Shown here piece by piece: positions 7,372 to 12,774 of a stretch of 64,000 nucleotides of DNA. Every line of letters begins with the position of its first letter. Position 1 is the stretch's first letter. Position numbers and translations under genes: made by a program. The stretch spans positions 1 to 64,000 of the forward strand of contig JAPLCQ010000140.1 in NCBI GenBank assembly GCA_026392115.1, given 5' to 3'. The DNA is from Armatimonadota bacterium (GTDB taxonomy: Bacteria > Armatimonadota > Chthonomonadetes > Chthonomonadales > CAJBBX01). The notes beneath the pieces are model-generated. The model made no database searches. It had not been told where the DNA came from and worked only from the letters and a program-made list of their open reading frames with translations.

Positions 7372-8037
7372 ATGACGGCAGACGAGAGCCAACTGGCGAG
7401 GAGCTTCCGGCAGAGCGAGCCGGACGCATTCGACGAGGTCTACCGCGCCTACGGCGGACGCGTGCTGGCCTACGCGCAGCAGGTGACCGGTAGCCGGACC
7501 GATGCCGAGGACCTGACGCAGGAGGTCTTCCTGGCCGCCTACGCCGGGCGCGGATCTTTCCGCGGTCGCTCAAGCCTGCTGACGTGGCTCTTCTCCATCG
7601 CCTCGAGGCGCTGGCGGGACGGCCGGCGGGCGCGCTCGGCCCAGGAGAGCCCCATGGACCCGGCGTCGATGCCCGATGCCGGCGGTCCCGGCGGGCTCAG
7701 CCTGGACGCCATACGCCTGCGCGACGCCGTGGCCCACCTGGAGCCGTGCATGCGGGAGGCCTTCCATCTGGTCATGGTGCAGGGCCTGACCCATGCCGAG
7801 GCCGCCCAGGCGATGGGCCGGCCATTGGGCACCGTGAAGTGGTACACGGCCACGGCCGTGCGGAGACTGAGGGAGGTGCTGCAAGATGATTCCCGACATG
7901 AGCCGAAAGACGTGCAACAAGATCAGCCGCGAGGAGCTGATCGCGCTGCAGACCGGCGAGCTGAGCAAGCCGCGGGCCTGGGCGCAGCGGGCGCGCCTGC
8001 AGATGCACATCGCCAAGTGCGCGGCGTGTTCGGCTGA
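7372..8037 (+). CDS. ECF-type RNA polymerase sigma factor
   Basis: 221 residues. Region 2 is about residues 10-80 (FDEVYRAYGGRVLAYAQQV, DAEDLTQEVFLAAY) and region 4 about 110-165 (LEPCMREAFHLVMVQGLTHAEAAQAMGRPLGTVKW), the normal ECF layout. The conserved part ends near residue 171; the last ~50 residues (highly charged, Ala/Arg/Asp-rich) coincide with the start of the anti-sigma gene in another frame and look like read-through rather than a domain. First gene of a three-gene set with its cognate anti-sigma factor and a HEAT-like membrane protein. It should direct RNA polymerase to an envelope or stress regulon; the signal is unknown. Confidence 0.9.
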   Translation: MTADESQLARSFRQSEPDAFDEVYRAYGGRVLAYAQQVTGSRTDAEDLTQEVFLAAYAGRGSFRGRSSLLTWLFSIASRRWRDGRRARSAQESPMDPASMPDAGGPGGLSLDAIRLRDAVAHLEPCMREAFHLVMVQGLTHAEAAQAMGRPLGTVKWYTATAVRRLREVLQDDSRHEPKDVQQDQPRGADRAADRRAEQAAGLGAAGAPADAHRQVRGVFG

Positions 8038-9403
8038 GTGGAGCTTCCTGCAGCAAATCGCCGTGACGGCCCGTGAACTCCGAGCCGCCGATGTCCCCCA
8101 GGGGCTGATGGCGCGCAACCGCACGGAGGTCGTCAAGCCCGCCGAGCCCATGCGGAGGCGCGCGCCGATACGGCCGATCCTGGCCGTCTGCGGCCTGGGA
8201 CTGGCCTTCTCGGCGGGCACGGCGCTCTGGCCCGAGGCGGCGCGCTGGGCCGACCACAACGCCCTGCCGAAGGTGAGCCAGGCCGACCAGGCAGCCTACC
8301 GACGCCTCTTGGCCGAGCCCATGCCGAAGCCTAACCGGTGGGACGCCTACCGCGCCGCCGACGACGCCGCTGTAACCGCCGAGACGCCCGGCGGACCGGT
8401 CGACGAGACGGATGCCCGACTGCGCCGCGCCGCGGATGCAGCCGTGAAGGCCAACGGCGAGGCCTACCGTTTGCTGGCATCGGCGCGGGGAATGGACTGC
8501 CGCATCGCGCTCCGAGACCTGGCACTCCATGGCAGAAGGGGGCATACCGGGATGGAGCGGCTGGGCTACGCGCTGGCAGCAAGGGCTACTGCCCAGCGGC
8601 TGAAGGGCGACACGGCCGCGAGCGCCGCGACGGCGCTGCTGATGGTGCGCCTGGGCTATGATGTGGCCGGCGCGGGCGATAGCGTCACGCTGAGCCACGG
8701 CGTAGGTCTGGCCTCGGCCGGCCTCCGGGCCATGGCGGCCGTGCTGCCGAAGTTCAGCGCAGATGAGAGCCGCGACGTTGCCGGGCAACTGGAAGCGAGG
8801 CTTAGGCAGGGCGTCGACCTCGACCGTGTCCTGCTTACCACGGTCTACGTCGAAACCGACATGGTCGGCGAGTTCAGGGTCTTCATTGAAGGCGAGGGCC
8901 TGCCGGCAAACCAGTGGCTCATGAACTCTGATCGGAACAAGGCGCTCTTGGCCGACTATGTGGCCCGCCTCAGAGCAGAGATGCGCAAGCCCTACCAGCA
9001 ACGGAACTGGAAGATCAGCCTCGGACCCGCGGACTGGCTGATCGACCAGCCGAGCGTTCCCGTCGCCCTGCGCCAGGCCTACAGACTGGAGGCCCAGGCC
9101 CGTTGCATGGCCGCGGCGTTGCGCGTCCACGCTTTCACAGAGGAGCAAGGCAAGGCGCCGCGCAGCCTGAAGCAGGCAGGAGTGACAGCCAAGCTCGGCG
9201 CCGACCCATTCACGGGCGACCCGCTGCGTTACGTGGTGGACAAAGGCGCGGTTCTGCTGTACAGTGTCGGTGAGGACGGTCGCGACAACCGCGGCTCGCA
9301 AACCGACGACGTGGGCCTCTGCCCGCTCGAGACGCAAGCCGAGACCGCGATGCTCGGCCCAAATCCCGCGGATGTGCCCTACATGCGCCCCAAGACCCGA
9401 TAG
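7886..9403 (+). CDS. Zinc-finger anti-sigma factor with large extracytoplasmic domain
   Basis: 505 residues. The N-terminus has a zf-HC2-like anti-sigma motif H-x3-C-x2-C (MHIAKCAACSAEW, about 40-52). A single membrane segment follows near 95-112 (ILAVCGLGLAFSAGTALW), then about 390 residues predicted outside. The far C-terminus (DPFTGDPLRYVVDKGAVLLYSVGEDGRDN) is a motif I know from secreted or pseudopilin-like proteins of planctomycete-type bacteria. The ATG has GGGAGGTG just upstream, inside the sigma gene, giving an unusually long 152-base overlap. Function inferred: holds the ECF sigma at the membrane until an external signal arrives. Confidence 0.8.
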   Translation: MIPDMSRKTCNKISREELIALQTGELSKPRAWAQRARLQMHIAKCAACSAEWSFLQQIAVTARELRAADVPQGLMARNRTEVVKPAEPMRRRAPIRPILAVCGLGLAFSAGTALWPEAARWADHNALPKVSQADQAAYRRLLAEPMPKPNRWDAYRAADDAAVTAETPGGPVDETDARLRRAADAAVKANGEAYRLLASARGMDCRIALRDLALHGRRGHTGMERLGYALAARATAQRLKGDTAASAATALLMVRLGYDVAGAGDSVTLSHGVGLASAGLRAMAAVLPKFSADESRDVAGQLEARLRQGVDLDRVLLTTVYVETDMVGEFRVFIEGEGLPANQWLMNSDRNKALLADYVARLRAEMRKPYQQRNWKISLGPADWLIDQPSVPVALRQAYRLEAQARCMAAALRVHAFTEEQGKAPRSLKQAGVTAKLGADPFTGDPLRYVVDKGAVLLYSVGEDGRDNRGSQTDDVGLCPLETQAETAMLGPNPADVPYMRPKTR

Positions 9404-10632: not shown

Positions 10633-11127
10633 CTACATGGCGACGAACCGCTCGCCCTTGGCCCCGCAGACCGGGCAGGCCTCGGGCGCCTTGCCCAGCT
10701 CGATGTAACCGCAGACCGGGCAGAGGTAGAAGTCGGCGGCCAGGTCCTTGCCTTCGGCCACGGCCTCCAGCGCCTGCTGGTAGAGCTTGGCGTGGACCGC
10801 CTCGGCTTCCAGCGCCAGCCCGAACATCCGCTTGGCCTTGTGTCCGTCGGCGGTGGCCCGCTCCAGCATGGGCGGGTACATGGTCGTGAACTCGAAGGTC
10901 TCGCCTGCCACGGCCGCCTTCAGGTTGTCGGCGGTGCTCCCCACGCCGTCCATGGCGGCGAAGTGGGCCAGCGCGTGGATCGTCTCCGCCTCGGCGGCGG
11001 CTCGGAACAGGCGCGCCACGTTGGCGAACCCCTCCTGCTCGGCCTTCTTGGCGAACGCCAGGTACTTGCGGTTGGCCTGGCTCTCGCCGGCAAACGCTTC
11101 CTTCAGGTCGCTGATCGTATCGGGCAT
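10633..11127 (-). CDS. rbr: Rubrerythrin
   Basis: 164 residues. The start MPDTISDLKEAFAGESQANRKYL is the standard rubrerythrin N-terminus; the open frame continues upstream but without similarity. The ferritin-like diiron domain (1-125) includes EAFAGESQANRKY, AEAETIHALAHF and ALEAEAVHAKLY. The C-terminal rubredoxin-like domain has two CxxC pairs (CPVCGYIELGKAPEACPVCG). Rubrerythrin reduces hydrogen peroxide in anaerobes and microaerophiles, taking electrons through the rubredoxin site. It is divergent from an exported glutathione peroxidase fusion, forming a peroxide-defence locus. Confidence 0.95.
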   Translation of the reverse strand: MPDTISDLKEAFAGESQANRKYLAFAKKAEQEGFANVARLFRAAAEAETIHALAHFAAMDGVGSTADNLKAAVAGETFEFTTMYPPMLERATADGHKAKRMFGLALEAEAVHAKLYQQALEAVAEGKDLAADFYLCPVCGYIELGKAPEACPVCGAKGERFVAM

Positions 11128-11298
11128 GATGGTCCTCCAGTGAAATCGGTAGTGGGTTGGCGGAGTAGGGCCGCCTGCCTCTTGTTCGTCACGGGTCGGC
11201 CTGGTTCCTGCCAACGGGTGAGACCCGGCAGACCGGCGCGTATAGGGCACTGTGCGGGTGCGCCCCGGCGCCCCGATGAACGCCAAACGGAGACCCAC

Positions 11299-12078
11299 AT
11301 GAACCCTATGGTCCGACCCTTGGTCGTTGCCGCGCTTCTGGGCATCTTGCCCGCGGCCCGCAGCGATGCCCGACCCCAGTATGCCGCGCGCGAGAACGCC
11401 AGGTGCACCTACTGCCACGTCACGCCGGGCGGGCCCCGCAACTTCCGGGGCCTCTTCTACGCCGCGAGCAACCACTCCTTCGCGGCCTTCGACAACGAGT
11501 ACGAGGCCAAGCTGGCAGGCGTGAATCCCGCTGCCACGGGCGGGACCGCCGTCGCCAGGAACCAGTCCTACCCCGCGCGGACCGCGCCCGAAGCCCTGAA
11601 CTTCGTCATGAGCGATATCGAGGGCAAGCCGGTAAACCTGGCCCGGTACGCCGGCAGCGTGGCGCTGCTGGTCAACGTCGCCAGCCAGTGCGGAAATACG
11701 CCGCAGTACGCCGCCCTGCAGAAGCTCTACGAGAAGCACAAGGAGCGCGGCCTGGTGGTGCTGGGCTTCCCGTGCAACGACTTCGGCGCCCAGGAGCCGG
11801 GGACCGAGAAGGAGATCCAGGCCTTCTGCACGGAGAAGTACCACGTCACCTTCCCCATGTTCGCCAAGATCGCCGTGAAGGGCCAGAGGCAGACCCTGCT
11901 CTACAGGCGCCTGACGGACAAGGCGGCGAACCCGAAGTTCGGGGGCGAGATCGAGTGGAACTTCGCCAAGTTCCTGCTGAACCGCAAGGGTGAGGTCATC
12001 GGCCGCTTCGCCGCCAGAACCTCGCCCGACGACCCGGAGGTGGTGAAGGCCATCGAGGCCGCACTGAAGGAGAAGTAG
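11299..12078 (+). CDS. Exported glutathione peroxidase fused to a CxxCH heme-type motif
   Basis: 259 residues. Residues 1-24 are a signal peptide. Residues 31-55 contain C36-T-Y-C39-H40 followed by VTPGGPRNFRG, a c-type heme attachment motif. From about 95 a complete glutathione peroxidase domain runs to the end: peroxidatic Cys131 in NVASQCGNTPQY, GFPCNDFGAQEPG, AFCTEKYHVTFPMF with the likely resolving Cys, and IEWNFAKFL. The family reduces peroxides with thiols or thioredoxin. Heme binding outside the membrane is consistent with CxxCH plus a signal peptide but is inferred. The longer upstream open frame has no coding similarity. Divergent from rubrerythrin. Confidence 0.85.
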   Translation: MNPMVRPLVVAALLGILPAARSDARPQYAARENARCTYCHVTPGGPRNFRGLFYAASNHSFAAFDNEYEAKLAGVNPAATGGTAVARNQSYPARTAPEALNFVMSDIEGKPVNLARYAGSVALLVNVASQCGNTPQYAALQKLYEKHKERGLVVLGFPCNDFGAQEPGTEKEIQAFCTEKYHVTFPMFAKIAVKGQRQTLLYRRLTDKAANPKFGGEIEWNFAKFLLNRKGEVIGRFAARTSPDDPEVVKAIEAALKEK

Positions 12079-12133: not shown

Positions 12134-12514
12134 CTAGCGCCCGTAGGGCGGCAAGGCGACGAGCCCGGCCACAGACCTGTAGTGCTTCGCGTTGAACGTG
12201 TACAGCACACAGCCACGATTCAGGCACTGCGCGGCAACCAGGTAGTCAGGTAGGCTTAGGCCAGACGTCAGCACATAGGTTGAGATGAGGTCGTGCGTTA
12301 GCCGTGAGTCAGCCAGTGTCACTTCCTCGGCGCGGAACTCGGCCAGGAAGCGCTTGGACCGATCAAGGTCGGCACGGTGTCGCGAGCCTGTCAGCATCTC
12401 CCACGCCACTGGCGCAGGTATACCTATGTCATCGACCAACGAGCGCAACCAGTCGGCCGCGCCGGGATAGCCGCGCTGGATGTCGATGAGAATGTCGGTA
12501 TCGATCAGAACCAC
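12134..12514 (-). CDS. vapC: PIN-domain toxin, VapC-like
   Basis: 126 residues, the usual VapC length. PIN-fold acidic residues are visible: LIDTDILIDI at the N-terminus, AWEMLTG near 38, and LPDYLVAAQCLNRGCVLYTFNAKHY near 88-112 with the conserved Asp and Asn. VapC toxins cut RNA (often tRNA or rRNA). The start overlaps the stop of the 86-residue upstream gene by one base, the normal antitoxin-toxin layout. Confidence 0.88.
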   Translation of the reverse strand: MVLIDTDILIDIQRGYPGAADWLRSLVDDIGIPAPVAWEMLTGSRHRADLDRSKRFLAEFRAEEVTLADSRLTHDLISTYVLTSGLSLPDYLVAAQCLNRGCVLYTFNAKHYRSVAGLVALPPYGR

Positions 12515-12774
12515 TAGGCGGACCGCCTCCAGGCACGGTCGCGTAGTTGGCGGGCGGCCTGGGGGCTGTCAAGCAAGTCGGTGCGGCCTGCCCACATGCC
12601 GAAGATGTCGGAGTTGAGCAGTTGCCCCCCGGTGCACTGCCGTCCCGCCACGACAGGCGTGACGACGACCTCCATGTCGGCGTCGCCCAGCGGCACCTCC
12701 GGAGGCAGCAGGACCTCCACCCTTCGTCCCTCTGTGATGTGAGCCCGCAGGCTTACGGTATGTGCCATCGCCAT
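12514..12774 (-). CDS. Antitoxin partner of the VapC-like toxin
   Basis: 86 residues (or 84 from the second Met). The N-terminal half (HTVSLRAHITEGRRVEVLLPPEVPLGDADMEVVVTP) looks like the short DNA-binding beta domain of small antitoxins, and the C-terminal half (FGMWAGRTDLLDSPQAARQLRDRAWRR) like the toxin-neutralising tail. Identification rests on size, order and the toxin next door. Short inverted repeats in front of it may be its autoregulatory operator. Confidence 0.75.
   Translation of the reverse strand: MAMAHTVSLRAHITEGRRVEVLLPPEVPLGDADMEVVVTPVVAGRQCTGGQLLNSDIFGMWAGRTDLLDSPQAARQLRDRAWRRSA

Follow-up and report, generated by a model that had tools for sequence, protein, structure and literature searches.

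The window, a 64,000-nucleotide stretch of Armatimonadota DNA, encodes a glutathione peroxidase (GPx) with a new accessory module at its N-terminus, and this module is an unnamed, mobile CxxCH domain. According to the reading that we favour, with a probability of about 0.55, the product would be an exported 2-Cys GPx whose accessory module is heme-c-like and whose disulfide is reset by a thioredoxin-like donor. If the module binds heme, the protein would combine a thiol peroxidase with covalently bound heme, and we did not find such an arrangement described.

An exported GPx with an N-terminal CxxCH module

The features of the gene, its product and its divergent neighbour are as follows.

11299..12078, + strand: exported glutathione-peroxidase-like protein with an N-terminal CxxCH module, 259 aa (open reading frame, Pfam, whole-protein homologues)
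11299..11370, + strand: signal peptide, residues 1-24 (by eye; low pLDDT in the model)
11371..11523, + strand: CxxCH module, residues 25-75, short helices (profile search, module model)
11404..11418, + strand: CTYCH, residues 36-40, putative site of heme c attachment (both Cys and the His unchanged in all 16 distinct fused homologues)
11524..11586, + strand: linker, residues 76-96, in which Tyr-Pro at 91-92 is invariant (structure model, fused-homologue alignment)
11599..12075, + strand: GPx domain, residues 101-259 (PF00255, Foldseek)
11689..11691, + strand: peroxidatic Cys131 (invariant in 40 aligned GPx)
11827..11829, + strand: resolving Cys177 (invariant in 40 aligned GPx)
10633..11127, - strand: rubrerythrin of 164 aa, divergently transcribed neighbour without evident signal peptide (PF02915, PF21349)
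11128..11298, no strand: 171-base intergenic region between the divergent genes (length identical in three genomes of the genus)

Translation of the open reading frame, which begins with the ATG at 11299 and whose stop codon ends at 12078, gives a product of 259 residues. A Sec-type signal peptide was recognized by eye, with a plausible cut between SDA and RP (24/25), of which the Ala at -1 and the Pro at +2 are invariant among homologues. The original prediction of a signal peptide followed by CTYCH at residues 36-40 and a full GPx domain with Cys131 was borne out, coordinates and residue numbers included, by the open reading frame and the PF00255 match.

The Pfam family GSHPx (PF00255) matches residues 101-205 with an E-value of 9e-39 and a score of 131.8 bits, the curated cut-off being 27. 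The catalytic tetrad is complete (Cys131, Gln165, Trp220, and Asn221), and the resolving Cys177 is also present in an FC motif about 46 residues past the peroxidatic cysteine, as is characteristic of 2-Cys GPx. In an alignment of 40 GPx sequences, C131, Q165, and C177 are invariant and W220 and N221 nearly so, while both cysteines are kept with or without the module. As well, Foldseek matched the model best to S. aureus GPx and poplar GPx5, with a TM-score of 0.94 by target length. Only one CxxCH is present and a CCP/MauG match was absent from the Pfam search, which sets the protein apart from di-heme cytochrome c peroxidases. These features point to an exported two-cysteine thiol peroxidase of the GPx fold as the predicted activity.

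The divergently transcribed neighbour is a rubrerythrin (PF02915, E-value of 3e-20) with a rubredoxin-like tail. In three genomes of the genus the spacing between the two genes is identical, and the GPx and the rubrerythrin are 82-90% and 96-97% identical to those of the window, respectively. The idea of a two-compartment peroxide locus, in which the two genes face each other across 171 bases, thus holds within these three genomes but does not extend beyond the genus, since no relative of the rubrerythrin was found near the fused gene (up to ~7 kb on each side) in ten fused genomes outside it. A conserved gene neighbourhood or operon logic beyond the genus was also sought in these ten genomes, and none was found.

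Within the intergenic region, the three genomes of the genus share identical blocks at 11200-11213 (CCTGGTTCCTGCCA) and 11238-11244 (GCGTATA), which might be control sites; no sigma-70 match was found for them. Downstream, a PIN-domain protein (PF01850) and a small open reading frame just upstream of it form a toxin-antitoxin-like pair (12134-12774, - strand); in G002 the same place retains no more than 30 residues matching the PIN protein, and in G001 no match was found. A pair of genes conserved in the genus (7372-9403, + strand) is located upstream of the GPx, at a distance of about 2 kb; the first encodes an ECF-type sigma factor, and the second, which overlaps it, weakly matches an anti-sigma zinc finger.

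Occurrence and history of the fusion

A whole-protein search of 101 genomes returned full-length matches, from signal peptide to C-terminus, in the genus, family, and order of the window as well as in G042, which belongs to another family. The same order of signal peptide, CxxCH, and GPx is present in 20 Armatimonadota genomes, 19 of the window's order (G000, G001, G002, G004, G005, G013, G015, G016, G017, G019, G020, G021, G022, G023, G025, G026, G027, G028, and G029) plus G042, so that the expectation that homologues would keep the CxxCH in line with the GPx domain was clearly upheld. The motif occurs at the same place in all 19 fused genomes that are readable in full there; an N masks the first Cys of the CxxCH in G019, and a contig end falls inside the GPx in G026. 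The 16 distinct fused proteins share a mean identity of 60% and a lowest identity of 53% (pairs differ at up to 47% of positions), and C36, C39, and H40 never vary among them. The CxxCH did not arise as a chance match, because every full-length homologue carries it and was found by whole-protein similarity rather than by the motif.

Public genome contigs were also scanned independently, by a method that relies on exact peptide words and is best suited to close relatives; it gave full-length matches in Armatimonadota only, labelled uncultured Chthonomonas and Chthonomonadaceae. Among plasmid records, no match spanned 80% of the protein, and the matches listed cover the GPx only. The fusion had been called unusual in the original prediction, and it was indeed not found in the literature open to full-text search, while the module is absent from Pfam as a family and likewise has no description in NCBIfam.

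Of 291 Armatimonadota genomes surveyed for GPx, 134 gave a match at E <= 1e-30, comprising the 20 fused genomes, two contig-end cases (G003 and G030), and 112 without the module on GPx. The latter were counted as plain where no module was placed on GPx by either the GPx survey or the search for the module in this set of genomes, and the few with long open frames that were read are plain GPx. Close relatives also export GPx without the module (e.g., L057-L059, L061, L062, and L064-L066), and the module is therefore not required for an exported GPx.

In the tree of GPx domains, fused and plain forms are intermixed, with six changes when the two contig-edge cases are left out, and a single clade of fused forms was rejected (AU test, p = 0.019, the two contig-edge cases counted as plain). 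The deep branches are weak, and one gain followed by several losses fits as well as repeated gains, so no firm history is drawn. Two further arrangements were noted. G042 carries a tandem pair of module-GPx genes (L067:6697-8086), of which the second has a run of N in the middle of the gene and an end matching the first copy; this second gene may have arisen by recent duplication or from the assembly. In G134, a plain GPx and a short gene for the module alone share a strand and are separated by about 1.5 kb (contig C73:1869-4146), possibly an unfused pair.

The CxxCH module and its candidate heme

The N-terminal ~50 residues constitute a compact module of their own, which is predicted to fold alone with confidence (pLDDT 89 and pTM 0.79 when modelled alone). 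A profile built from the first ~52 mature residues found the module in 59 of 291 Armatimonadota genomes, about a fifth, alone or on other partners. No convincing sequence match to the module was found in the PDB and no Foldseek match to its model; neither sequence profile nor fold searches revealed a relative among known or solved cytochromes c.

Besides GPx, the module is joined to a family of ~340 aa, to a 3-keto-disaccharide hydrolase domain (PF06439), to a thioredoxin-like domain, or to just a short tail. The ~340 aa family has no Pfam match and is also present in the genome of the window (contig C150, L092:3391-4392, - strand), where the exported product carries the same CxxCH module on a domain of ~260 aa without Pfam match and has relatives throughout the order. 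The thioredoxin/AhpC-like domain fused to the module in L141 (G122:C27:3000-5500) is devoid of cysteines, and G123 and G124 hold modules in open frames of a length similar to that of L141.

Residues invariant in the fused proteins include Pro26, Ala29, Glu32, Cys36, Cys39, His40, Arg50, Gly51, and Tyr54, followed by Ser60, Phe64, Asp65, Glu69, Ala70, Ala73, and Gly74. Since module members chosen by regular expression partly force the conserved residues seen in the A2 and A3 profiles, our statements on conservation are based on the fused set, which was gathered by whole-protein similarity.

Outside Armatimonadota, two weak module matches were found in 338 genomes of the Verrucomicrobiota phylum, at least one of which is another CxxCH family. 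The L136 protein (G472; AFARKYGYNCTMCHSSFPRLNDYGERY) has its motif in the same position behind the signal peptide, and its pattern, FARK..C..CH...N..G..Y, is similar, but the protein is a weak profile match only (E-value of 2e-4) and is attached to a different partner protein. Its gene adjoins a cytochrome c peroxidase-like gene. The module is portable, probably mono-heme-c-like, and typical of Armatimonadota; its role, once known, would annotate many secreted proteins of this phylum.

The sequence places a CxxCH on an exported protein, as in c-type cytochromes. The genome of the window contains two cytochrome c assembly proteins (PF01578) on contig C148, in a cluster read as ccmA, ccmB, ccmC, a CcmE-like gene, and ccmF (System I), in which the names were given by eye except for the two PF01578 matches (CcmC- and CcmF-type). 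PF01578 proteins were found in all fused genomes but one (19 of 20), the exception being G005, whose assembly is in 740 pieces; since 57 of 61 genomes of the phylum have such proteins, their presence allows for heme attachment without singling out the fusion. As the protein appears to be exported, its CxxCH is invariant and cytochrome c maturation genes are present, heme attachment to the CxxCH is plausible. The CcmE-like protein (C148, L091:3523-3915, - strand) carries CPSKY (CxxxY) in place of HxxxY, the usual heme-binding motif of CcmE.

No distal His or Met is conserved in the fused alignment, where position 57 is H, N, or S, position 59 is H, Y, L, F, or K, and no Met is conserved. Moreover, His and Met are absent from the 42 residues after the CxxCH in five of 45 modules, one more being cut by a contig end. 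Lack of a conserved distal ligand is unusual for an electron-transfer cytochrome; five-coordinate c hemes exist, and a missing distal ligand does not exclude heme.

Resetting the peroxidase and comparison with known systems

In the mechanism that we favour, the protein would be exported by Sec and cut after residue 24, and the Ccm machinery would attach heme through Cys36 and Cys39, His40 being the proximal ligand. Cys131 would reduce peroxide, leading to a Cys131-Cys177 disulfide, which would be reset by an envelope donor of the thioredoxin-like or CcdA type instead of glutathione. Glutathione synthetase (PF02955) was not found in the genus, the genome of the window included, by a family search that would miss the bifunctional GshF, and DsbD/CcdA-type membrane proteins are present in the genome of the window, which makes a thioredoxin-like envelope donor the natural reset path. 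The heme module would then be an accessory common to other exported proteins rather than an electron supply dedicated to GPx, and it might serve in redox docking to the cytochrome pool or as a separate, possibly five-coordinate heme site. Such a general role fits better because the module is also found on a hydrolase and on a Cys-less domain.

It had been proposed that the heme-linked peroxidase could take electrons directly from a cytochrome. The module would then accept single electrons from envelope cytochromes and pass them to the Cys131-Cys177 disulfide, so that the respiratory chain reduces peroxide. The retention of the module in line with GPx in 20 genomes, the invariant Tyr-Pro of the linker, which suggests a fixed geometry, and the missing PF02955 in the genus all speak for this scheme, yet the thiol-cycle Cys177 is fully kept, some other partners of the module do not require electrons, and the plain exported GPx of near relatives manage without it. 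It also counts against the scheme that we know of no close precedent for a one-electron heme supplying a two-electron disulfide. We therefore regard direct uptake as not supported and less likely than a general heme tag, given that both cysteines are kept regardless of the module, close relatives export module-free GPx, and some module partners are non-redox proteins. Wiring of this kind in general appears unlikely, and its fullest form, in which the module feeds the GPx cysteines with respiratory electrons from the envelope cytochrome pool without thioredoxin or glutathione, is a little more doubtful still. If heme is bound, two peroxide-relevant cofactors would be combined in one exported protein, and whether heme electrons can reset a GPx disulfide becomes a simple bench question.

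A CxxCH that is not a heme site at all, with Cys36 and Cys39 acting as a dithiol/disulfide or as a metal holder that aids GPx resetting or folding, is decidedly improbable. It would agree with the variable distal position, with the failure to match any cytochrome by sequence or fold, and with a module model that folds confidently without heme; however, His40 is as invariant as both cysteines, and heme c requires this His whereas a dithiol does not, and the maturation proteins of 19 of the 20 fused genomes are expected to act on an exported CxxCH. Very unlikely is a second, independent active site or sensor, in which an open-coordination heme reacts with peroxide or NO, for although the five modules lacking His and Met probably leave the sixth position free and NO-binding CxxCH modules are known in Cache domains (PMC12889525), no signalling partner was found and the module partners are diverse.

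The reading of an exported 2-Cys GPx with an accessory module can be set beside several known systems. A preprint describes cytochrome-derived CxxCH fragments that were recruited into Cache domains as NO-binding heme modules (DUF3365/Tll0287, PMC12889525). They also place a small c-type heme motif on an unrelated exported domain, but the fold and the partner are different, the motif lies inside the domain, and the heme has been shown experimentally.

Bacterial di-heme CCP/MauG proteins likewise tie exported peroxide reduction to c-type heme; they use two hemes and heme chemistry, while the protein of the window has one CxxCH and is predicted to use thiol chemistry. Shewanella PgpD, a periplasmic glutathione peroxidase, is exported and acts against peroxide stress (PMC4336711). 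As described there, it is a plain GPx expressed as residues 20-177, which leaves no space for a CxxCH module. Finally, the thioredoxin-dependent poplar GPx5, yeast Hyr1, and S. aureus GPx (PF00255) have the fold, the peroxidatic Cys, Gln, Trp, and Asn, and the resolving Cys in common with the protein of the window, to which the latter adds a signal peptide and the N-terminal CxxCH module.
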